Source: Loxodes magnus
Lineage: Eukaryota > Ciliophora > Karyorelictea > Loxodida > Loxodidae
Reading direction: 5' to 3'
DNA: 64,000 nucleotides
NCBI GenBank assembly: GCA_946699065.1
Contig: CAMPDV010000042.1
Location: forward strand, 248,001-312,000
Shown one piece after another: positions 4,823 to 59,299 of this stretch; position 1 is the stretch's first letter; each line of letters begins with the position of its first letter. The notes beneath the pieces were generated by a model. The model did not search any database. It was not told where the DNA came from and worked only from the letters and a program-made list of their open reading frames with translations. Made by a program: the position numbers and the translations under genes.

Positions 4823-7264
4823 ATGAACGAAATTCCAAAATAGTTGGAAGAAATAATTTTTAAGTAGTGTGATTATACACCTCAAGAAAAAAAAGTCCAA
4901 GGACATGATTTTGACTAAGAATCGTAAAACATGATAAACGACTTCGAAACAACCGGGTTTTAAGCATCTCACTTGCATAAGGCAATAACATTAATTAATG
5001 AAATGTGCTCTAAAAGGAAAAACGGAGATTTGAAGATCGTTTTGTGCATTAGTAAAAATCTGCTTGCTACTGGAATTAGGGATACTATAACCTTTTTAGC
5101 TCAAAATTAACTTTTCGATGCTCTTTTCAGCAATGGGGTTGAATATGATTTCTTAAGGAGTCTAACGGCCTTTTATGCTGCTAAAGACTTTACAAACAAA
5201 GTTCTTAAAGTTAATTAGCAATAAACAATTTAATTAGGGAAAGAAACAAACAGTAGAGCTTCAAGTCGCTCAGAGTTTTCTTTTGATACAACTATCAAAA
5301 AAGATATCAAGCTTGATTTCAAACTAGCTAAGATACTAGGAAGTGGAGCTTCAGGAATTATTAGAGAAGCTACCAGAATTATAAACCCTGATAAGAAATA
5401 CGCTGTAAAGTCCCTGCAAAAAAGAGAAATTAAATGCGACTTACTAAAAAACGAGATAGAGCTAATGAAAGCATTGGATCATCCTAATATCGTAAAATAT
5501 TACTCCAGCTATGAAGATCAATAATACTTTCATATTGTAATGGAACTATGTACTGGAAGTGAGCTCTTAGGAAGAATTCTAAAATAAGGAGGATTAAAGG
5601 AATAAGAAGCAAAGTAGATTTTTATTTAAATGCTTGGAGCTGTAAAGCATATGCATACGAAGAATATCATTCATAGAGATATCAAACCTGAAAACTTCCT
5701 TTTTGAAAGTACTGAATCTAATAACATCAAACTAATTGATTTTGGAATTGCAAGTAAATTTATCGCTGGAAAACTGATGAGAAGTACCCGTGGAGGAACA
5801 ATTCATTATTCAGCTCCAGAAATTTTCTTATCTAAATACACACCTGCTTGTGATTTATGATCACTAGGAGTGTCACTTTATACAATGCTAAGTGCATAAC
5901 TTCCTTTTGATGGAAGGTCAGAAGAAGAGATCATATCAAAGATAAAAAAATCTAATGTGGACTTTAGAAATAAGATCTGAGCCAACGTGAGCAAAGAAGC
6001 TAAAAACTTGATTATGAATTTACTAGTTAAGGAACCAAAGCATCGAATGACAATCGATGCAGCATTACAGCATCCATGAATTTAATAATAGCAGAACAAC
6101 GAAATTATCTCTGAACAAGCCCCCGAAATTCTGGAGAATCTCTTAAACTATCGAAGTGATAAAATTCTAAAAACTTAAGCAATGCATGTTTTAGTAGCCC
6201 ATGCTGATTAGAGTCATATTAAAAATCTATAGTAGATCTTCACTGCAATGGATAAAGAAAATACTGGAATGATTACTTCTTAAGATCTTTATGAAGCTAT
6301 GAAATAATGTGGCTTGAATGTGGCATTAGAATAAATTTAGTAGATAATCGAGCAACTAGATGTGCATGGTACTGGACACTTGAACTACAGCGAGTTTCTA
6401 GCAGCCACTCTTGATGCTAGAATTTACATGGATGAGCAAATGCTATAAACTGCTTTTTCTTACTTTGATGTTGAGAAAACAGGTTTTATTACAGCCTAGA
6501 ACCTTGAGAAGGCATTATTGGAATTAGGTAGCGAATTTAAACCAGAAGAGATATAAAAAATAGTTGAAAATGTAGACCAAAATAAAGATGGAAAAATTAG
6601 CTTCTAAGATTTCAAATTGATGATGGACCCAAAACTTGAGAGTTAAAATTAATGCAATCTTTTAGATTCTCCTTCTAATTATAGAGTAGGCAATGTGCTT
6701 ATTCCAGTTTGTGGATATAAGAACTTTGTTAATTGAATGATAGAGCGTTTGGATAAGTAGGGATAGAATTAATTTACTACTTAAGAACTTATAAAGTTTC
6801 TAGCCTCATAGTTAAGTGATCCCTCAACAATAAGTTTTTAGTGCTAATAGAACAATATTCCTTGGTTTGCTCCTTGCATTTCAACTTGTAAGAGCTTTAG
6901 TGAACTATTATACATAATGAATAAGAAAGGGGAGTTTATTTTAGACGTTTCAAATGACATTGCTGGAATGTACGATCTTTTAGAAAATTGAAACGACAAA
7001 TAAATTGGATTAATTTCATTAGGAGGAGGAAGTGCTTTGTAACACGCACTTCACGCAAGCACAATAAAGGGTGGATTTGACTATAGCGTATTTATAACAA
7101 CTGCAAACGAATTTGACGGAAATAATACAGGAGCAAGTTCAGAATAAATGGAGACATGGGGATTCCTAAAAAATAAGCAAACCAGCGTGACAGTATGTAT
7201 AGATGCAACCATTGTATGGAATCATATAGTTGCTAGCTCTTTTTTTAAAATCGTTGAAAATTAA
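4823..7264 (+). CDS. Deoxyhypusine-synthase-like pseudoenzyme with a CDPK inserted in the middle
   Basis: An 813-residue single-exon frame with nested domains. Residues 1-140 match the N-terminal half of deoxyhypusine synthase (DHS): VQGHDFDQ, FETTGFQASHL, NLLATGIRDTITFLAQN and GVEYDFL. Residues about 163-420 are a full protein kinase: GSGASG loop, YAVKSL Lys, HRDIKPEN, DFG, TIHYSAPE and DLWSLG, with that Trp as TGA at 5858. Residues about 455-610 hold four EF-hands (the last is DQNKDGKISFQD), the CDPK layout. From about 620 the DHS C-terminal half resumes (YRVGNVLIP, LDVSNDIAG, LGGGSALQH, ANEFDGNNTGA, ETWGFL). The kinase looks active; the DHS half does not. Aligned by eye to human DHPS, Lys329 (imine-forming) is Phe, Lys287 is Leu, His288 is Gln, Asn292 is His, Asp316 is Asn and Glu323 is Gln. 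Inference: a Ca2+-regulated kinase carried by a DHS scaffold, perhaps pairing with an active DHS elsewhere as trypanosome DHS pseudoenzymes do. It ends at tandem TAA TAA. Confidence 0.9.
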
Positions 7265-7479
7265 TAATTCTTAAATTAACCATAAATCTACTTTTATAAT
7301 TGATTTTACTCTAATTTCCTATTTCTTCTTAGTATTAGTTTAAGATATAGCCTAGATAACCTTTATTAAGTTACATTATACTTATAAAATTTATCAATAT
7401 AGGTTTGAATTTTGACTGTAAACTGAATTACTTTAACAGATAGATCTGTAAAAGACTTGTGGTTGTTTGGTAAAATTCA

Positions 7480-12603: not shown

Positions 12604-15600
12604 TCAAAATCCTAAATCTACTTCCTCTTTTTTATTTTCTCCTTGCTCAATTTCCTACTATTTCTTTTCTTCCTTTTCTTTAGTCGTTTCTTGCTTTTAC
12701 TTAGGAATTATCTCTGGAACTTCCATTCCTAGAATGGGGAAGATTTAGTTTCTTATAGGTCTGATTTCCTAAAATTAATTTTTACCTTAACGGGTTTTGT
12801 CCAATCAGTGTTCTTAATAATTTCAACAGCTTGCTCTTTACCTGCTTAGCCTTGTAAATAAACAAAAAGTTTATCTCTGACTTCCATTCTTATCTTGGCA
12901 TAATTATGACTAAGTCAAGCTACGCATGTTTTAAGAGCTCTACTCTATACTTTCTCTTCAGGACAGTTTAGCATAGCTGATAATAGTTGGGCAGAAGCTA
13001 GAAGTTTTCCCATGTCTTTTTGCTGCTTACTTTCTTAAAGTGTCTTTTCCAAAACGTTTTCAAGAGATGGTAAGTTGTTTAGCTGAGTGATTAGAATAGT
13101 AATTGTTTTAATGCAGGGAGCTACAAGCCTATGATCTTTAGGTAGCCCTTCGTATAATTAAATTAGCTTCTATATACACTCACTGTTAGGATTCTGTCTG
13201 ATAGTGTTTAAAACAGCGGAAGAACTGCATTTAATTGTACTTTCAGTGAGACTTCCTATACTTAAAACTAGACCTTTCCACAGATCTGTAGTAAACTCAG
13301 GTGATTATGTTAACAGAGGAGAAAGTAGCTTATAAGCATATTAAGGAGATGACCAAAGAGCTGCTCTTGTATAAGCTGAAGTAGCAGAAGCAACAGGAAT
13401 ATGAGTTTGGTCTGGAAGATTTGAGATTTCTTCAATTTCTATCTCCTTATTAAAAAGATACGTAAGCTATGATGAAAAAATCTCAGGCATATATTAAATT
13501 ATATCATTCAAAAGTTGACCAGCAATTTAGCGGAGTTTATCTATAGGCTCGCATAATAATCTCAAATGAACACCTACAATTTCACTTCACTCTTATTAAG
13601 ACAACTAACTGCTAAAGTGAATTGCTATTTTATGTAAGCTTCTTAATGCAGCTTCTCTAACCCAGCTGCCAACATCTCCTCGAGTATCCACTGAATAATC
13701 TTGAGTTCCTTTCTCTAAATATTAAATTATTATTTCCTTGCTTTGCTGAGTTTCTATGCAAACACTACTTAAAGCCCACATTGCGTTTTACCTAGTTTCC
13801 GCATCATCATTTGCATTGTTAAGTGGAATTCCCGATGCATACAAGCATTCGATTATTTCCTAGAAATTCTTTAAAAGTAAAGGTTTCTTTAAGCATCCTA
13901 AAGCTAAGCAAGCCCCTCTAGTTTTATTAGCAGGAACTTCTTTACCTTTAATAAAATCTTTTAAAGACTCTAAATTAGGCTCAGTAGCATCTTTGTAAAA
14001 TACTTCATTATCATGATATTATTAGGAGAAAGCTAGATATGCTTTCACAGCTGCTTACTAAATTTCTTCAAAAGTATGCGAAATCATTTCATTCAAAACT
14101 AGGGTTATTAGCTTAATCTGTTGACTACTAAGAGGTAATTAGCAAAGGGAGTAGCATTAAATGTATCTGCATACACTAACTCTCATTATTTATCCTCCCT
14201 TTCCTCTGAATAGTCTCTACTTATCAATTTTTTCAACTAGAGTTTACAGTTCTTCTAGTAGCTAGGCAGGAAGTTTATTTAGCTGATCTAAGCTTTATTT
14301 CTCTTAATAGTGCTATTTAAAACGAACTCTACTTTCACTATCTTCAACTATTTTTAAAGTATTGATCTTGTCTTATTACTCTGATTTATTGCTAATTAAG
14401 TAGTATAGCTAAGCATGCTTATAGGTTTGCTGCTATATTTAAAGAGGATTTGTGTTTAGATATCCTTTTCCTGCAAGCCCTAGTAAGATTTCGCCTACCG
14501 CCTATGTCGCTCCTGCTCTCACTGTCATTATAGGATCAAAGCATAGTTTAATAAGAGGAGGTATTACTTATGCTATAAAATAGTCAACATCAAAAGGAAC
14601 TAAAGCACTCAGAGCACAAGCTGCTAAGTTTCTAATTTGTTAGTCTCAATGCTTTAGTTTTTAATCTCTTAGATGGTTTGTTAGATTTAGGAAATATTCT
14701 TAGAACTAAGCAACAAATGCTGCTATCTGTAAATAGCAGTATGCTCTATTTCCTAGAGACAGATAATCTGTTTCTGTGTTTATTTCAATTCCATGAGGAA
14801 AGTTACCTTATCTGCCTACATGCTCTTAATATGCTGCTGCCGCTGCTCTTCTGCAATTAACCTCTCTATCAAATAATGTAGTTATAAGTAACGAACTGGA
14901 AAACGGAAGAACGCTTTTCTAAAGAACTTCAGGAGCATAAGCGCGAGCGAAGCTTCATGCTACATAGCAAGCTGCATCTCTAACATGAGCTCCTGTAGAA
15001 AATTGCCCTAGTCTTTAATCATAAATCAGGGCTTGCTCGAGTAAAGGAAAGAATTCTTTCAGTCTTTGCTCAATAATTAATCCTCTTCTTCCAAGTTCAG
15101 CTATCGCTAAACATCCACCATGCCAAGCATCAGCTGATTCAGCAGGATTAAGTAGAGAAAACAAGTTCTGAACAATATCGTCAGCTAAATCAAAAGTAAG
15201 TCTTCCAGTAATTCTTCCTAATCCTTTTGCAGCTGATCATCTAACAATAGTATCTTTATCTCTAAGATCATTAAGTAAAATATCCATTATTTTCTCAAGC
15301 CTTTCAATATTAAAATCCTCTTCAAATAAGTCCGATTCTTCCTTCTGTGCATTCTCACTTTGCTAAACTTGCTTAATCATTGTAGTGTTTGTCAAAATTT
15401 AACATTCTTCTTACTATGAAAGTTGCAAAGTCAAACTTCTAGCTCCTCTTTAATATCTCCATGTACACACTCTAGGCTTCAAATCAACAAGAGCAATTCT
15501 TTATGCAAGTTTGCATTTATACTGTCTAATTTAAGAGTTATCTTCCTCATTATGTTCTATAAGCTAGATTGTAGAATCCAAAGTAGGAAGTAGCTCTTAT

Positions 15601-16364
15601 CTTTATCCAGATGAATAGATGTACGTTAATGCAAGCAAATAGCCAGAAGTTTCAAGATTAGAGTATGATCTGAAATTATCAATTATCTCTTTCAAAAATT
15701 TATCTAAAATACCACCTTTTACAACATCAGGCCTAGTCAAAAGCTTTCCTAGCATCAATGCAGCCATTTCTCTACTTCTACTAGCTTTGCATATCACTTA
15801 TTTCCCTAGATCCATAACTTAGCTTAACAGACTTCCTTTAGAATCAATACTTTCTAAGTCAAAAGGTACTAAAACAATAACAGACAGTCAAAGTAAAATA
15901 ACGTAGACTATTTCTCACTGCTCTTGGATATTCGTTTATAATGATTAAATAATTGGCTCTAGATCAGCTACTTCATGAGGGAAAAATTTAGCTATCGCTT
16001 TACCGCCTCTAACTTTACAACAGCACTGAATTATTTCGAATAGCAATATTTATTACTTACTAAAAACGCCTTCTGGATTCTACCTGATAATATTCCTAAT
16101 AGTCTAGAGCAAAGGAGTAAGTCACCCTTCTATATGCGGATCAAGAAGACCAGGCTGTTCCTAATAGATAGAAATAGTGTAGACAATTCAGTTTTTGATT
16201 TCAAATAGTTCGTTATACTATTAGCTACTTAGATTGCATAGCTTCTATATCTAAGACAGAATTGTTTCAGATTCTTTTACAAATGTATGTACGTTAGGTA
16301 CCAACTCTTCTCCACATTCTTCTTATTATCTCTTATGCAAATCTAAAAATATCGATTCTTCCAT
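12604..16364 (-). CDS. TBCD: Tubulin-specific chaperone D (tubulin cofactor D)
   Basis: A 1247-residue HEAT-repeat protein, close to the usual TBCD length of about 1200, with one 17-bp intron near its 3' end. Diagnostic blocks are [22 protein letters not shown] near residue 195, [17 protein letters not shown] near 373, [18 protein letters not shown] near 405, and [16 protein letters not shown] near 888, which matches the RGDVGxWVR signature of TBCD. The C-terminus is a charged Glu/Lys tail ending EEVDLGF, then TGA. Family knowledge: TBCD, with cofactors C and E and Arl2, assembles and recycles alpha/beta-tubulin dimers, essential for a cell built on ciliary microtubules. The Trp in VRWSAAKG is TGA. 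Its ATG lies only 5 bp from the most upstream possible ATG of the divergent START gene. Confidence 0.93.
12769..12785 (-). other. 17-bp intron in TBCD
   Basis: On the minus strand GTAAAAATTAATTTTAG separates ...TDWTKPVK from EIRPIRNQIF. Removing it keeps the frame to the acidic C-terminus and makes the whole CDS divisible by three. Confidence 0.75.
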
Positions 16365-16369
16365 CTTTT

Positions 16370-17569
16370 ATGTAAGTTATTTGGGAAGAGTCAATTTAAG
16401 CTATCTAGAAATTATTTGATGCTAATTAGAGAAGCAAGGCAGCATATGAGTTAAACAGGACTGAGATATAAGTAATGAAGCATTTTGAAAATGAGTCCTA
16501 GCTAGGAAATTCTGAGGTTTAGAAATGAGATGAAGTTTGATAGATGTTAAATGATAATGATACTATCAGAAAGATTCGGACTATGAGAGTTTATCAGAAA
16601 ATTTCAGTTGTTTGTTGTGAATCTATTGACTAGCAAGAAGTGAAACTTTTGATACCCTAGTAAGTAACTGAAAACTGAGAGTAATATATTCAAGAGATTA
16701 AAGATACGTTCCATGTTGAAAAAATATAAAAAGCTTATAAGTTAATCCAGAGATTTAAGCAGCAGTTTCCAGCTGTCAATCTAGAATAGAATCAAAAGCT
16801 GTTCGATAAAATCATTTAGTTAGAAGAACAAACTGTCAAAATACTAAACGAGTTTAACGATAATGAAGGTTGGCAAGTTGAATAAGGAGGCGCCTTTTAA
16901 GTTCATTTTAAGTAGCTTCCTTAATTCAACTCAAGTTCTTTAAAATTCGAAACAGAGTTAAAGGTTTCGCTCTTTTCTCTTTTATCTCTGTTTTACGAAG
17001 TGGATTTATATCCTAAAGTGCTACCATTTTGTAAAAGCACTGCTACTATATCAACTCTATCTAAATGTAGGAAACTTTTCCATATAACTTATGATTTACC
17101 AATCGTGAGTAGAAGAGACGCAATAATACTAGGATAAGGAATTGATAGGACTGAAGAAGATGGCTCAATTTTAGTGTTCTCTTAATCTCTACCGCTAGAA
17201 GATAAAACTTATACTGAGTTTGATTCCTACGAAATGAAAGAAAAAACAGTTGATATTCCTGGGGATTAGAAGAGTACTATAAGAATAAGCATAAACTTCT
17301 TTGGTATACAACTCATTCCTACATCTAGATAAAGCTGCTATATTAGAATGATCACTAATATTGATCCTAAGCTCAAAATAATTCCCATGTGAATCATTAA
17401 TTGATTCAATAGAAAATTTTCAGCGAGACTTGTTAAGAAAATTTTAAAACATGCAAATAAATTCGAAGGAAGTGAGCATTAAAGAAGAATGCATGGCTAG
17501 GAAAACAGACTTTTCTATGATTGGATGACTCAAAGAGTTGAGGAGTTTTATAAAATAAAGGGATTTTGA
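16370..17569 (+). CDS. START-domain lipid-binding protein
   Basis: About 399 residues. An N-terminal helical region (residues 1-150, Gln/Glu-rich) precedes a START fold: ...NEGWQVEQGGAFQVHFK near 165, FYEVDLYPKVLPFCKST, the DLPIVSRRDAIILGQGID strand pair with the basic VSRRD motif, a polar EDGSILVFSQSL strand, and the C-terminal helix IDPKLKIIPMWIINWFNRKFSARLVKKI that caps START lipid pockets. Family knowledge: StAR-related domains carry sterols, phospholipids or ceramide between membranes; the ligand cannot be inferred here. The start at 16370 keeps a coding-like leader (WEESIQAIQKLFDANQRSKAAYELNR); Met at 16475 is the alternative. It ends KGF then TGA TGA. Confidence 0.85.
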
Positions 17570-36329: not shown

Positions 36330-39300
36330 ATGGAACAAGTTCTTAAAGAGACTTAATACTTAGATAGCAAAGGAGTTACTGAACAAGTAAAAGGTTCAAT
36401 CCTCTCTCGCTTATTTAGATTAATATCCACTCTTTCTTTAGAAAAATAGAAGGAAATTTTGAAATAAGAAACTATCATTTAAAAACTAAGAAACTGTATT
36501 TGTGATAAAGAAAAGTCAATTAGAGCTATCACTATGAGAATCATTAGGTATCTAATGCTTGATTAGGAATCTTTGAATGTCTTGCAGAGATTCTGAATCC
36601 ATTATTTAGTTGTCAGAAATTTCGAGAGAGAAGGAAAAGGATTAGAGAGAGTAGAGGCATGAAAAATTATTAAAAAGTGGATTTAAATAGGATCTGAGTA
36701 AATACCCAGAGTGTTCTCAAGTTCTTTGCTTAGTATAGTTGAAGCAGATGCTGATGATTTTAGGGAACCGGCAGTAGAGCTGTTAAGACTACTAGCGATT
36801 CATAACCCTAAATAGCTAGTAACTTCTGACAGTTTTTCAACTCTCGTATCTTCAAGTTTCGATTCTAGATTATCAAGCTACTTTATTGAAAACGTTCTTT
36901 TAACTCTAATTCACATTATTAATAATCCTGATAGTAGAAAACTAATTTTGCCTTATCTTGAAATCGAACCTATTTTATATGTATTTACTGATACCGAAAG
37001 TCCTGAGAAAGAAGCTGAACTTGAAAATAAACTAAAGCTCGCTAAACGAGCTACTGTCCTATTATTAAGATCTTGAACTGGTCTAATATACTTGACAGCT
37101 GATCCTTTTGGTCTGCAAAGTCTAGTACATGCTATTTCACTTCCAATCCGACCACTAATTCGCAAAGCAATTTATGAAGCTTTCGAAGAAGTATTAACAC
37201 CAGCCTAAGGATGCAAAGCTGGTACTTTACTAGGAAATTTCATGGCTTTAGTTATTGAGGCTTTACTTCTTTGTGACCTACATAAGTTCTCACTAAATGT
37301 GCTAAAAAAGAACCTCTTGCTAGGTCATTACTATAGAAGCTAATGACAGCAGCTTGGGAACTATTACCAAGCGTGCCTGAAATATCATTACTTTAGAATA
37401 ATTAAATGTGCATATTGCAGCCTTAGCTAGAAAATGAATCTGTCCATACTAATAATCTGCTAGTTACTTCATTAAACTTCGTATCCAAGCTTTAATAAGA
37501 GCCTGAGGCTTTCTTACTCTTTCCTAATAGCGATTAATGGCTATTAAAGTAGATTGAATCATGCAATATTAATAAAGAGCCTAGCAAATGGGAGTGGGAT
37601 AGAATAACTGAACTGACAGATGGTCCTTTATGGAAATTCCCTAACTTAAAGAAAAACGTTAAGCACTTCCTAAAGCATCTTCTGAGCTTCTTCCTTCCTT
37701 CAAGGTAATTGTTTTGAACAGAGCCTTGGGTAAGTTTTACTTATACTACAGCATCACCTTTACTTTATCCAAGCAAGAGTTGGTTATATAGTAATTCTAA
37801 ACTGCCTAAGAGACAAATTTTACTAGGATTTACTTCTATCTTATAGCTCTGATAATTTCTTTGTTTCAAGAAAGAATATCATAGAGGAGTTAAGAGATGG
37901 ACTCTAAGCTGAGTTGCAGCCTTAGGAGGAGAAGAGAGTTTTTTCGCCTGACAATGTAAGAGGATTTATGTCTAGGGAATACTTAATTTGGATTGGTGCT
38001 TTCTTACAAGAATTTTCGGGAAGAGAGTTACTGATGAAGTACCAAGTGGACAATATACTGAGAGAAGTCATAAGCTTAGAGCATTTAGCTCCGTTGTTAA
38101 TCATATGTTTGGATTGCAAAAACTCCCTTTCTAAAGAACTTCTTTCTTTTGCCTTGCAAGCTAAAAGTTTATTAATTCGTCTAGTGGCAGTCTAAAGGAT
38201 ATAATATCTATTTAGAACTACTTAGGAAGACATGGGCTGAGCTATAGAAGCTCTTATTCCTTTACTATATCAGAACGATATAGAAATTGCTAATTATGCT
38301 AGTTATCTGCTAATAGAAATCTGCAAAGAGCCTAAAAACTTGTAGTAGCTCATAAGCCTTAGACCATAAAACTTGAATAACACCTTAGTTTAGTAGAACT
38401 TATTAATGCCTTTCCTTAGTTCTACTTAAGGAGTGGAATATCTTATGCAGTTTGATATTTTACCAAAGTAACTTGAACGTTGGTTTGAAAATGGAAACAC
38501 TTAATATGTGGTTGATGTTGAAGAACTGATAGAGTAATCGCTTAACTACTCTAGGTCTTATGGGTTAAATCCTCCAGTGCCAACAGCTTGGATTTTGAAG
38601 GATAAAGATTTATCTTTCTTGAAAAGAATTCCCTTGAGTATATTAATTTAGTTAGGTGCGGAAGTAACTGTTTAGCATCTAGATGTAATATTCGAGCAAA
38701 AGGATTAGGAATTATATCTAACAGCAAGGTGTAACCTAGAGGTAGGTCATACCACTATTAGTATTTGTGTTTTGCTAGGACGATATTGTATCGATAGTAG
38801 AGGAGCTGAAACTAGTGGACCAGGGTGGTATAACTGCACAGAGTAGGATAGACAGGCAGCATATGAACAACACTTGCACAGCCATTTTATTTTTAATAAA
38901 AAGAAAGAAAAGGAAATAGATGCAAGGATAACTGTTAATAAAGAAGGAGCTCTATTTATATTCCATCTTAACTAAGGAAAATGACTTCTAGAAAAGGTAT
39001 AACTCATTTGCAGTTTTGATACCATGGCTAATTCAAAATTGGAGCCTCCTAGTCATTTCTGCGGAGAAGTAGTAAAAACTAAATAGGGAGCGGAAATATT
39101 AAGCAAGTCTGGATTTATAGAAAAATTACTAGATGATTTAAACCAAAATAATACGCTGAAACTAAGAGCAGCAATATGGGCATTTGGGCATATTGGAACG
39201 ACTGAGTATGGCTTGCATATTCTACTGTAGAATTAGATTTTAAATAGACTTTGTACTTTAGCTGTAATATCAGAAATGCTATCCATCAGAGGTACTTGTC

Positions 39301-39743
39301 TTTAAGCTTTAAGTCTTGTAAGTAGAACGTAAGAAGGAAGAAGTGAGCTATATAAGCTATAGTGGCTAGCAAAGGAAAGAATAGCAGTACCCATGGAGCA
39401 TTTCTTCAAACTTAATCAACAAACTGCTGAGGAAGAAATTTAAGACTGAACTGAATTTGATAAAATAAATAAAGTAATCTAGCTGAATGAGGAAGAAAAC
39501 GACATCTTAGAAAACATCATCAACTTATCAAATATAGTGCTTAAGTAATAAAGCTTTGACTACTTGAGAGTCAAGAGAAACTCTCACTGCTTAAACAACC
39601 CTCAGCTATTTCTCTAAACAATGAACCATATGAGTTTTTACAAGTTTAAGTAGCAAATGAGAAAAGCAATCTATACCTTGTATGATAGAAATTTAAATAA
39701 CAAGAAGTTCTTGAATAAAATGGATAAGTTCGTAGCTGTTTGA
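36330..39743 (+). CDS. RICTOR: Rictor, TOR complex 2 subunit
   Basis: About 1130 residues of alpha-helical repeats matching Rictor family blocks in order. N-terminal block: DKEKSIRAITMRIIRYLM, FEREGKGLERVEAWKIIKKWI, PAVELLRLLAIHNP, and RATVLLLRSWTGLIYLTADPFGLQSL, the hallmark LRSW-GL segment, about residues 50-280. Middle block near 540: SREYLIWIGAFLQEFSGRELL. RICTOR_V block near 940: LRAAIWAFGHIGTTEYGLHIL then SIRGTCLQALSLVSRTQEG. Family knowledge: Rictor scaffolds TORC2, which phosphorylates AGC kinases at membranes. A 22-bp intron lies at 37730-37751. One base is missing to hold the frame at the A6 run 37304-37309. The ciliate protein is shorter than human Rictor (about 1700), lacking the long disordered C-terminus. 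The end is TGA after DKFVAV. Confidence 0.9.
37730..37751 (+). other. 22-bp intron in Rictor
   Basis: GTAAGTTTTACTTATACTACAG, between WTEPW and HHLYFIQARVGYIVIL. Removing it restores the frame that carries the rest of Rictor. Confidence 0.7.
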
Positions 39744-46091: not shown

Positions 46092-49000
46092 TTAAAGAAA
46101 TTAATCATCTCCAGCAATGTCTATTTTGTACTTTTTCAATGCCTACTACTTTGCAATCACGAAGTTGAATTAGCCTCTTAATTCTAAGAATTAAGATTGA
46201 GAGACCTTGGTCAAAGGTACCATTATATGAGCATTGTACCAATCATCCTAATTAATTTCTAAAAGTTGATTATTGCTATTTCGGAATGTTCATAAATCTA
46301 GAGATAAACTACCAAAGAAATCTAAGTTACTATTACAGCTTTCCTTAGTATTACCGATAGAATATTTATAATCCCATCTAGATAAAATGACAATTTCATT
46401 TAGGCTTTAAAGAATCAACTACTTAGCTCCTTACAAAACCTAACAGACTTCTTCAACATCCATTTTCATAAAGTACACTCGCCCTGGTTTGTTAAAAACT
46501 TCGTCTAGTTTCTTAGCCTTTATTTTTTCCTCTTCATTCTCACTCCACGATCTTTATTGAAGAGCTTAAATATTAGAGTTCTAGTAATGATATAAGCTCA
46601 TAAATGCTGTCTAGTTATAAAGAGCGACATTATAAAGTCTGAAATACTGTAGTAAGTTATTCTCTTTAATGTTATTAGACAGTTAAATGAAATTATTGCA
46701 AGAAGCTTCGAAAGCATTTATTTTGAGTTCGGAATATTAAATTGATATGTTTATCATACTTTGATAGTACTAAACTAATTTAGCCATTATAAGTCCATGC
46801 AATCCTATGCCAGCTCCAATATTCATGATGTTCCCCTTTTGTTTAGATCTGAAGTTAATATTTTTTATCAATCTAGAGTATAATAAAATTCCTTCAACTT
46901 CTCAGTTTTATTATTTACTTTTCTCAATTTTCATCCTACAGTTAGGATCAATTTCAGTGTTACACTAAATTACAAAATAATCATTTTGAATATATAAATC
47001 AAAAGGAATTTTAACCTTCAAAAATAGCTCCTTTTTATAAAAAAAGCTAGAAATTTCCTTCTAATTGTTCCAGCATTTTATATACTAAAACTCACTAGTC
47101 CCGTTATCTCTAGTTTTATTCGATAGTCGATTAATCTTTCGTGTTACATCTTTTTTCTCTACCTTTTTCTATTAATTACTTGAGTAATAATTAACTGTAC
47201 TTTGTTTCTAGGATAAAGTGGAAGACTCTTAGTAGGTATTTTAAGAATCTTGCTTATTTTTTTGAAATCTAAGTTCTTTAAAGCTCTTCTATTTCTTAGG
47301 GGCCTTTACTTTAATGAAACTTAATAAATACTCAATTTATTAGTCTAAAGAACTGACATCTTCTAGGTAGCTATAAGGAACATTAACCTTAGGAGGTTCT
47401 TTATATTCTAAGTTATACTTATTTAAAGTGGTAGATCTAGAAATTATTAGGATTTCCTAATCAGTCTATCTGGTTTAGTAGCCTAAATCTTTAATTTCGC
47501 TAAATTATATTCCTATAAGAGGGTAATTAATATCTCCTTTATACCAACGATACCTTTCTCTTTCCATTAGTCATCTATTTTTTAAGTCAAATCTGAAGAA
47601 CTGGAAATCTAAAACTGAAAGAATATAAATCATAGAGTAACATACTTAGGTAGATTTGAAAATTTCATCATTCCATTTTATAATCAAAACTATAGAATCG
47701 ATATTTCTGACTATTGTTTCCAAACTTCCTATTATTATATGACATGTCAGTTATCCATCTATCTTCAGTAAATTAATTCCTTTTAGGTCAGAAGGTAAAA
47801 TAGAATCTAGAGTTTTAGCTTTTATTTTTGTTTAATTATAAACCTTTTAAAAACTACCTAGCTTTGATGCTGTGAAAGAGGTTTAATTTATAATTGCAAC
47901 TTCATTTGACAAAATGTCACTGTGAAGTTCAGCAAAATTCTGAAAATTGTTCTTTTAAACATTTTGTAAAAGCTGCTAGAACATATAGCAATCTGATTCA
48001 AAACTGTATAGCTTTTCTTTTCCTTGTTCATGATTATATCTTGAAATAAGTCCTGCCATTCTTAGTGTATGGATTCCATACCCAGCTCCTATATCAATAA
48101 CGATATTTCCTTTTTTTAGAATCTTTGAGTAGAAGCTAATCACTTCAATTTCAAATTTATTCTTCTAGTCTAAATCCGCTTTCTTCTAACATTCTTAATC
48201 AAGGTTAACATTACAAGATACCTAAATTTACTTACTATCTCAAATTTTTATTTAATAGCTAATTTAAGCCAAAGGATCATTAAGTATCTATCTCACTTCA
48301 TAAGTTAAAACATCCTAGCTAGTACAGATTTACTTCTAAGCATTGTTTATATTTCTTTACTCTCTTTTAATGACTTATTTAAGAGCTTAAATAGAATAAT
48401 TAAAATATTTTTCATCCTTATTGTCACTTATTTTTGATGGAATTACTTCTATATCGTATTTCTTAATGGTAGATGGCCTTGCTATTATTATGTTTATTTG
48501 AATTTTTTTATTCGTGATTCCATAAAGTTCCTCTATTTTAACTTCCACTAATGGTATGTTTCTGCTGCCTGTATATCATTGTTCTTTCATGTAATCTGCA
48601 AACTCTAAAGCATCAAAATTTGTATCAGTCTAATAGATTCTCATGCCTAGTTCTTAAATCTTTGTGAACATAGGATGACATATGGAGTCGAAATCGTAAT
48701 GTCTTGAATCTCATTCTGCTATTATCACTATGGTATCTAAATTTCTTTCTATTGTTTCAAACCCTCCTGATATTACTTAGCAGCCAAATCCTTCAACATC
48801 TACTTTCATAAATCCAATTTTACTTTCATTTTGAGGAATTAAATTATCCAGTTTATTAGCTTATACTTTAACTTCATTACGAGATCCTGCAAATGAAACT
48901 CCTGATTTTCCAGAATTTTTGCTTATCATAAACTAAAGTTATTACTCCTTGTCATATATTGCTAAATCATGTGGCTTTACATAATCTTATAACTAGTTCT

Positions 49001-49802
49001 TTTCAATGTTCACTAGAAGCTGTACGAAAGTTGTGCAGGAAGCTTCAAAACTGTACACAGTTCCACTTCCACTTCGCTTTTTAATAAGAGACGCCATTCT
49101 TACAGTGTGCAAGCCATAGTTAGCTCCAACATCTATACTTGTTTAGCTTTTTTTTAATATTTTTGAGTAAATGCTTTAAATTCCCATTTCAAATCTACTT
49201 GGTGCATCTTATCTTGATCTCCAGTTACAATCTAAATCAAGAGCTTAATTGCATGAAAGGTAAATGTACTCTTTAAAAAATTTAACTTTATAAGTTTTAT
49301 GATCCATGCTCTTTTTTAAATTTTGAGCTATCGAATTTGGTAATTTCTATCCATTAGGACACTATTGCTTTTAAATAATGTTCTATATGATTGATGAGTT
49401 GCTAATACTTCAGTTTCGAGTCTCCCATATTCTATTTAATCTCTAATCTTATTAATGCTTATACCTTATTCCTTCAGTTTTTAGCAAGTTTTTATCATTA
49501 ATTTCATTTATCTATTTCTATACCTTTTTCTGATTTCTCCTCTTGCCTTATTACCTCTATTTATCTCTCCTATCTTTATCCTTTTCCAAATCTTAATTTT
49601 CCACTTATTAAAGCGACTAATCAAGAATCTTCTAATCATTCAACTAAGCCTCACCAGTCATTAGCACATTCTAGTTCAAAAGTACTGTCTAGTTATATTA
49701 TTTTTATTTACTTCGATATTGTTATAACATAAACATACCAAAGAATGAAGTTAAAAGCATGACTGAAAGTACTCCTATAATATTTTTTACCTTAAACTAC
49801 AT
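46092..49802 (-). CDS. Membrane-anchored protein with three tandem FkbM-type methyltransferase domains
   Basis: 1236 residues in one exon. The N-terminus is a type II anchor (MQFKVKNIIGVLSVMLLTSFFGMFML), then a Gln/Lys/Asp-rich stem (about 30-150), then three FkbM (PF05050-like) domains. SAM-binding motifs: TSIDVGANYGLHTVRMA near 225, IVIDIGAGYGIHTLRMAG near 570, NIMNIGAGIGLHGLIMA near 995, each followed by a YSFEA-like strand (YSFEA, YSFES, NAFEA). The second FkbM signature, KxDvEG, is intact in domain 1 (MKVDVEGFG near 333), broken in domain 2 (LKIDG then TCH, near 680) and partial in domain 3 (MKMDVEEVCQ near 1113). FkbM enzymes O-methylate sugars and polyketides; with a luminal anchor, glycan methylation in the Golgi is a reasonable inference. 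Probably only domain 1 is active. It ends at TAA TAA. Confidence 0.87.
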
Positions 49803-57385: not shown

Positions 57386-59299
57386 ATGTAATCAGTTTTG
57401 GCAAGCGAAAAAGATTATATCATCGAAGCTTCTTATATTTAAAAATTAGACGAGATAGCTAAGGGAAGTTTTGGAGTGGTTTACAAAGGTTTAATGTAGG
57501 GTTGTATTGAAGTTGCGATCAAAGAGTTATATAATTAAAGTATATCTCAAACAGCTTAAAAACTTTTGGAATGCGAAATATCGATAACATAGAAATTAAA
57601 GCATCCTAATATAATAGTTGTATATGGATACTGTCCTACACCGTTATGTTTGGTAATGGAGTATCAACCATAAAATTTATTTAATTTAATACATAACGAG
57701 ATAAAGTTGCCATGGGAGTTGCGTTATAATATAAGTTTGGATATTGTACTGGGTCTTGAGTATATACATGATAAAAATATAATTCATAGACATTTAAAGA
57801 GTAAAAACGTATTACTAGATATCCTTATGAGAGCTAAGATAACAGACTTTGGATTATCTCAAGTGAGAACTGAATCAAAATCTTTAGCAATTAAGTAATA
57901 GATGGGAAATATTCGTTGGATGGCACCGGAGTTAATGAGCTCAAAGCCGAAATACAGTAAGTAATCCGATATTTTTGCGTTGGGAGTAATTTTTTGAGAA
58001 ATCGCTGCTCGAAAAATTCCTTTTTAGGGTGCTGAGGATAAATTTATAAAAGAATTCGCTTTAAGAGGTGAGAGAGAAGTAATTCCTGAAGACTGTCCTT
58101 AAGTATTTCAGCAAATAATTTAAGGATGTTGACTATAAAATCCAGCAGAAAGAATTAATTTGGAATAAATAAAAAATTATCTGTTAGGAATACAAAAATC
58201 AAAGTAAGCTTCAGCTACTAAATCTAATACAAATACTGTTTCCATATAATCGTAAATAGGAAGTTTAAATCTCTAAGAAGAAAATAAGGTAATAACTCAA
58301 TTTAAAGCCAAGCAATAAATCTCATATGATTAAAGCAAAGGTAATTATTAATATACAGATTAAATCCTTCAAGGACATTCTGACTACATCTAATCAATAA
58401 CCATTTCTCCTGACCAGAATTGAATCATATCGGGAAGTGTAGACAAAACAATAAAGATATGAGATTTTCTGGATGGAATCTGTAAGAGTACCTTGACAGG
58501 ACATACTGAATCAGTTTATTCTGTAGTGGTATCAAGTGACCAAAAATGAATCATATCAGGAAGTTCCGATAAAACAATAAAGATATGAGATTTTTTGGAT
58601 GGGACTTGTAAGAGGACTTTGCTGGGACATAAGTATGGAGTTAGATTGGTGGTGATAACATGTGATCAGAAATGAATTGTATCGGGAAGTTATGATGGAA
58701 CAATAAAGATGTGAGATTTTCTGAGTGGAATCTGTAAGAATACTTTGTCGGAACATACGGATGGAGTTTTATCGGTAGTGGTAACAAGTGACTAGAAATG
58801 AATCGTATCGGCAAGTTACGATAGAACAATAAAGATATGGGACTTTCAAAGTGGGATTTGTAAGAGTACTTTGACGGAACATACTGATTGAGTGAGATCG
58901 GTAGCTGTATCAAGTGATCAGAAATGAATTGTATCGGGAAGCGAAGATAATACAATAAGGATATGGGATTTTTCTTCTGGTTAATGTATACAAACTATCA
59001 CTGGGAATTCAAACTAAGTATTTTCAGTAATATTAACATCAGACAACAATTGGATACTATAAGCTTCAAATGATAGTTTAATCAAAATATGGAATTTCTA
59101 AACAGGGGAAAATATAGAAACTCTAAGAGGTCATTAGGGATGGGTGCTACCTTTAGCGTTAAGTATGGATAATAAGTGGTTGGTATCAGGAGGAGAGGAC
59201 AAGGTAGTGAGAAAGTGGAAAATATCAAGCTGAGAAAGCAAGCAGAAATTTCTAAGACTTTAAACACAACGAATTGAAGAAATTAATTTGAAAAATTAA
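57386..59299 (+). CDS. TKL-like kinase (catalytic Asp replaced) fused to a seven-blade WD40 propeller
   Basis: 637 residues, single exon. Kinase about 15-275: EIAKGSFGVVYKG loop (first Gly is Ala), EVAIKEL Lys, catalytic loop IIHRHLKSKNVLLD, TDFGLSQ, RWMAPEL, DIFALGVIFWEIA and a final WLQNPAERINLEQI. The HRD Asp is His (codon CAT at 57791-57793, one base from GAT), so phosphotransfer should be lost or much reduced although Lys and DFG remain. After a Gln/Ser-rich linker come seven WD40 repeats from 58373 to about 59250, each exactly 42 codons, with WD at DQKWIVSGSYDGTIKMWDF-type positions. The first five are close to identical in DNA. The propeller was presumably used for partner binding. Most WD Trp are TGA, the clearest proof of the code in the window. 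End taken at TAA 59297. Confidence 0.9.
58373..59254 (+). repeat. Seven tandem 126-bp WD40 units
   Basis: Units start near 58373, 58499, 58625, 58751, 58877, 59003 and 59129, an exact 126-bp period. Units 1-5 share long near-identical stretches (for example around ATAAAGATATGAGATTTT), including at synonymous sites; units 6 and 7 are diverged. This suggests recent expansion or gene conversion of the first five blades. Confidence 0.85.

Follow-up and report, generated by a model that had tools for sequence, protein, structure and literature searches.

In kinetoplastids, a catalytically dead paralogue of deoxyhypusine synthase (DHS), termed DHSp, is reported to raise the activity of the enzyme ~3000-fold within a heterotetramer (PMC3663545), and a DHS paralogue of Entamoeba (DHS2) is described as carrying Phe in place of the catalytic Lys (PMC7909649). 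In human cells, the DHS protein DHPS is reported to be phosphorylated at Ser233 by ERK1/2 (PMC7522278), which is also described as competing with eIF5A for DHPS (PMC12868627), and a DHS-ERK2 structure has been deposited in the PDB (8pvu). Here, we describe a gene of the karyorelict ciliate Loxodes magnus in which a complete Ca2+-dependent protein kinase (CDPK) appears to be nested within a DHS fold. The gene lies on the + strand of a 64,000-nucleotide stretch of contig CAMPDV010000042.1 (positions 248,001 to 312,000; hereafter the window). An initial inspection of the letters by themselves (the sequence-only reading) had proposed a regulatory pseudo-DHS that couples Ca2+ signalling to hypusine/eIF5A biology, or else a reused scaffold, and pointed to the trypanosome activator as a precedent.

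The frame at 4823-7264 (+) encodes 813 aa in the table 28 translation (TAA/TAG = Gln, TGA = Trp). Along it lie, in order and all on the + strand, the DHS N-half (4931..5191, residues 37-123, PF01916 positions 2-87, E=4.2e-14 in a separate scan), an in-frame linker 1 (5192..5299, residues 124-159), the protein kinase domain (5321..6082, residues 167-420, Pkinase E=6.6e-68), a calmodulin-like region recognized by EF-hand models (6221..6625, residues ~467-601), linker 2 (6626..6676, residues 602-618), and the DHS C-half (6671..7234, residues 617-804, PF01916 positions 97-286). Scanned alone, the C-half matches PF01916 positions 100-286 with E=7.6e-35, such that the deoxyhypusine synthase profile is matched over the length of the family, and the single-frame order of parts given by the sequence-only reading is reproduced by Pfam. 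When the insert is left out of the query, the DHS halves are colinear with human DHPS (1rlz, 4.8e-40) and identical to it at 78 of 253 aligned residues. The insert corresponds to human residues ~152-163, where the alignment is loose, and stands ~10 residues ahead of the eIF5A-contact positions N173 and Y176, which are reported to stabilise the eIF5A loop (PMC10042821). Both halves retain the DHS fold in a structure model. The insertion does fall in a loop, as first read, but the segment YRVGNVLIP, taken then for the start of a helix, is modelled mostly as a strand, with the helix after it. Two structure models were made and, because the alignment behind each lacks relatives for one of the parts (the kinase scores mostly <50 in one, DHS mostly 30-60 in the other), neither gives the relative placement of kinase and DHS. 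The nesting in a single frame is seen at the DNA level, and we are highly confident that a complete ciliate CDPK has been inserted in a loop of a eukaryote-type DHS fold. Both parts are known and it is their combination that is new, as judged by the protein and literature searches made, which turned up no described DHS with a nested CDPK.

The inserted part has the layout of a CDPK, a kinase domain followed by four EF-hands (loops at 6251-6286, 6359-6394, 6467-6502, and 6575-6610), and is matched over its full length by PfCDPK2 (4mvf, 4.3e-97). The kinase retains 48 of the 51 columns that show ≥95% conservation across 35 CDPKs, as well as the catalytic Lys196, HRD (284-286), DFG (306-308), and APE (331-333), in agreement with the sequence-only reading on the first three. 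From these residues, the kinase is likely to be active. Four EF-hands had also been counted at the outset; that number stands, and EF4 is near canonical, with Asp at position 12, but EF1-EF3 depart from the canonical ligand pattern.

The DHS part, by contrast with the kinase, differs from human DHPS at positions central to catalysis. Replacements in the alignment are K329F, H288Q, D316N, N292H, E137Y, D243E, K287L, and E323Q, among them all five that had been picked out by eye (at Lys329, Lys287, His288, Asp316, and Glu323); no change is seen at W327, D313, or D342, or in the GGG motif. The catalytic Lys329 is replaced by Phe781 (codon TTC, 7163..7165, +) and His288 by Gln740. K287, E323, D313, and D342 are positions that we take to have active-site roles in human DHPS. 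For D316, N292, D243, H288, and K329, such roles are described in the literature (PMC7226451). Additionally, the Loxodes protein differs at six of the eight human DHPS positions at which alanine is reported to stop hypusination (PMC10042821). Half (34/68) of the columns with ≥90% conservation among 21 DHS rows are kept and half (34/68) are changed; these rows comprise 20 of 73 DHS loci and one archaeal-like protein, P0003, with three loci excluded because their matched region contains stops and the other 50 by choice of subset. Where there is a human counterpart (n = 61), human DHPS keeps 43 columns and the Loxodes protein 31, and the 15 columns kept by human and lost in Loxodes include K287, H288, E323, and K329. 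Because 18 of the 61 are different in human DHPS as well, some of the loss is ordinary divergence. The score against TIGR00321, a model of NCBIfam, which serves bacterial and archaeal annotation, is about half the equivalog cut-off (149.7 versus 304.25 bits), on a match split by the insert; the comparison value of 305 belongs to P0003, which passes, and the set scored contained no eukaryotic DHS control. With its catalytic replacements, this score, and a fold that is kept, the pseudo-DHS of the sequence-only reading is supported, and the DHS active site is very probably dead. A DHS fold without its catalytic Lys is also one of the marks of a DHSp-like prozyme. These comparisons use separate DHS and CDPK alignments, as MAFFT misaligned mixed DHS and CDPK rows and one set of DHS halves.

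In a kinase tree (24 rows, midpoint root), the Loxodes kinase lies on the side that holds CDPKs of Protocruzia, Blepharisma, and Stylonychia along with some unnamed rows, and is separated (support 98/97) from those of plants, dinoflagellates, and Vitrella; it sits on a long branch (1.44), and the tree does not settle its position among the ciliate rows. The solved structures with the highest scores for the DHS part are human, Brugia, and Trichomonas DHS, with Pyrococcus next, above Entamoeba and T. brucei. The DHS C-half found no match at E 1e-3 among 580 candidate proteins of 447-1422 aa, and the joined halves matched one protein among 817 candidates, the archaeal-like P0003. A CDPK search gave 4302 matches among 7990 candidates scored; in the 120 of these that were listed, PF01916 was absent, and the best blastp hit to the two DHS halves and P0003 had an E of 0.13. 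No relative was present among 31 viral-contig stretches fitting a pattern, and no second DHS was found within the 64-kb window, although two other protein kinase genes in the window weakly match the kinase part (2.5e-12 and 1.9e-8). The literature searched, ciliates included, yielded no fusion of DHS with a CDPK or another protein kinase.

How might such a protein work? We propose that the kinase would be enclosed by the two DHS halves, which would oligomerise in the way that DHS protomers do; their partner would most likely be a separate, active DHS, as it is for the DHSp prozyme of kinetoplastids, and the kinase would thereby be held close to the mouth at which eIF5A docks. When Ca2+ rises, the kinase could plausibly be switched on and would then phosphorylate DHS, eIF5A, or partners in the complex, or alter access to the active site. 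The steps differ in strength: judged from residues, a dead DHS site is very likely and an active kinase likely, gating by Ca2+ is plausible, and that the protein joins an active DHS and governs hypusination is what we infer. We favour a Ca2+-gated, prozyme-like DHS partner because of the dead DHS paralogues of kinetoplastids and Entamoeba and the action of ERK on human DHPS. The regulatory role and the tie to hypusine/eIF5A biology proposed by the sequence-only reading would lean on the same precedents. As a whole, the statement that a CDPK nested in a dead DHS works in this manner is one that we consider a serious possibility, falling just short of probable; the link to hypusination is more tentative, and it is rather doubtful that the dead subunit, with its own CDPK, joins an active DHS so as to couple Ca2+ directly to eIF5A modification and hence to translation.

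Several observations weigh against this account. EF1, with Glu3 and Asp12, and EF2, with His3, have unusual ligands, and EF3 has a non-canonical Asn12; some unusual ligands are common to relatives, with Asn12 occurring in 11 of 35 CDPKs, and Ca2+ dependence of the kinase is plausible from the EF-hands. Only two of nine mapped eIF5A-contact positions (Y176 and S240) are identical to human DHPS, because of which the Loxodes protein itself may not bind eIF5A. The coding signal of linker 2 is weak, with 10% of 1074 null windows scoring as well and one minus frame scoring slightly higher. Finally, no second protein with both DHS and CDPK was present in the collections searched. Standard gene prediction breaks up genes in which TAA and TAG encode Gln, and the negative protein searches for this pair are qualified by it.

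The main rival to the prozyme-like reading is that the dead DHS fold serves solely for oligomerisation, as a reused hub; through the DHS interfaces, four copies would yield a tetrameric CDPK with no connection to hypusine. CaMKII is assembled by an association domain in a comparable manner. In favour of a hub, Brugia DHS is a tetramer with ~12,600 Å2 buried (PMC7581365), and the fold is kept in the model of the Loxodes protein while the catalytic and most eIF5A-contact residues are changed. Nothing specific speaks against it, but the precedents of dead DHS paralogues favour a partner role, and we regard a pure hub as somewhat unlikely. That the DHS part is instead a decaying remnant, with the kinase alone at work, is improbable: although half of the conserved DHS columns are changed, both halves remain in frame, are modelled as a DHS fold, and show in-frame codon usage, and the divergence of human DHPS at the same set of columns accounts for part of the loss.

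It is more improbable still that the locus represents two genes or an artefact, with a kinase gene inside a DHS intron or two loci joined by assembly. What could be taken for such a break is linker 2, where the weak coding signal is accompanied by two TAA codons within a candidate 24-nt GT-AG intron (6642..6665, +). The length of this candidate is a multiple of three and the frame is kept whether it is spliced or not. Both junctions are in the same frame and on the same strand, and the DHS profile match restarts ~10-13 positions after the break. Within 5176-5433 no ATG begins on the + strand, and the flanking ATGs (5175 and 5434) lie in other frames; therefore, barring an unseen exon, a separate start for the kinase is lacking. 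Were a kinase gene to sit in an intron of DHS, this intron would be ~1.4 kb long, while introns of ≤25 bp make up 93% of those in Loxodes magnus (PMC11441545). In codon usage, none of 308 overlapping intergenic null windows scored as well as the whole frame, and in linker 1 the coding frame outscores the other five, a modest support with 4.9% of 1058 null windows scoring as well. Eight further predicted segments served to train the codon model; these were first chosen by a scan seeded with the kinase-DHS gene, so the model is not fully independent, and the null windows overlap. Weakest of all is a still active DHS with a built-in Ca2+-controlled kinase, which is scarcely credible: the kept W327, D313, D342, and GGG motif would suit it, but K329F, H288Q, D316N, E137Y, and the other replacements, a score about half of the TIGR00321 equivalog cut-off, and the report that Phe for Lys in Entamoeba DHS1 gives an inactive enzyme (PMC7909649) argue against it.

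The end of the gene depends on the genetic code. Across the predicted coding segments of the window (9193 codons), TAA (394) and TAG (226) outnumber CAA (163) and CAG (76), and TGA (79) outnumbers TGG (50), which is a karyorelict-type or Condylostoma-type code. The reading of TGA as Trp is supported by W346, invariant in 36 aligned kinase rows, and W386 and W419, nearly invariant, all of which it encodes. In karyorelicts, TGA is the only stop (PMC11441545), and it is probably also used as a stop in the window, because a kinase-WD40 gene starting at 57386 has an in-frame TGA nearby at its end and no closer TAA or TAG. The true stop of the kinase-in-DHS gene may thus be TGA 7301-7303, extending the coding frame to 4823..7303 and the protein to 826 aa, rather than the 813 aa that end at TAA 7262-7264. 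The kinase-WD40 gene itself joins a protein kinase (PF07714) and a WD40 propeller in one frame (57386-59233, +) before the in-frame TGA. A long frame at 46416-49694 (-) has an FkbM-type methyltransferase domain, seemingly repeated about three times by eye, of which Pfam calls one stretch. Tubulin folding cofactor D (12747-16373, -) and a RICTOR-like gene (37884-39515, +) are ordinary eukaryotic neighbours.

If the proposal is true, Ca2+ signalling would be tied to hypusination in one molecule, Loxodes would represent a further lineage with a dead DHS paralogue, and control of DHS by a kinase would be directly testable. Even if it is no more than a hub, the protein would show that an enzyme fold can be converted to a CDPK scaffold and that one of its loops, ~10 residues before the eIF5A-contact residues N173 and Y176, can accommodate an entire kinase.

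Among known systems, Leishmania DHSc shares with the Loxodes protein a DHS fold carrying insertions, of at least 15 residues, but these are small and of unknown structure, and no enzyme domain is described in them (PMC7581365). Kinetoplastid DHSp (T. brucei and Leishmania) and Entamoeba DHS2 are, like the Loxodes protein, DHS folds that have lost the catalytic Lys, which is Leu in kinetoplastids and Phe in both Entamoeba and Loxodes; unlike it, they have no kinase inside as described. The ball helix itself lies outside the alignment. Human DHPS with ERK1/2 offers a parallel, in that a Ser/Thr kinase is attached to DHS and influences it, but consists of two separate proteins with an active DHS, and the MAP kinase has no EF-hands. 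The same kinase plus calmodulin-like domain is found, with a full-length match, in the apicomplexan PfCDPK2 (4mvf) and a CDPK of the ciliate Protocruzia (P0005); these are free-standing, whereas the Loxodes CDPK resides inside a DHS fold and is without a free N-terminus.
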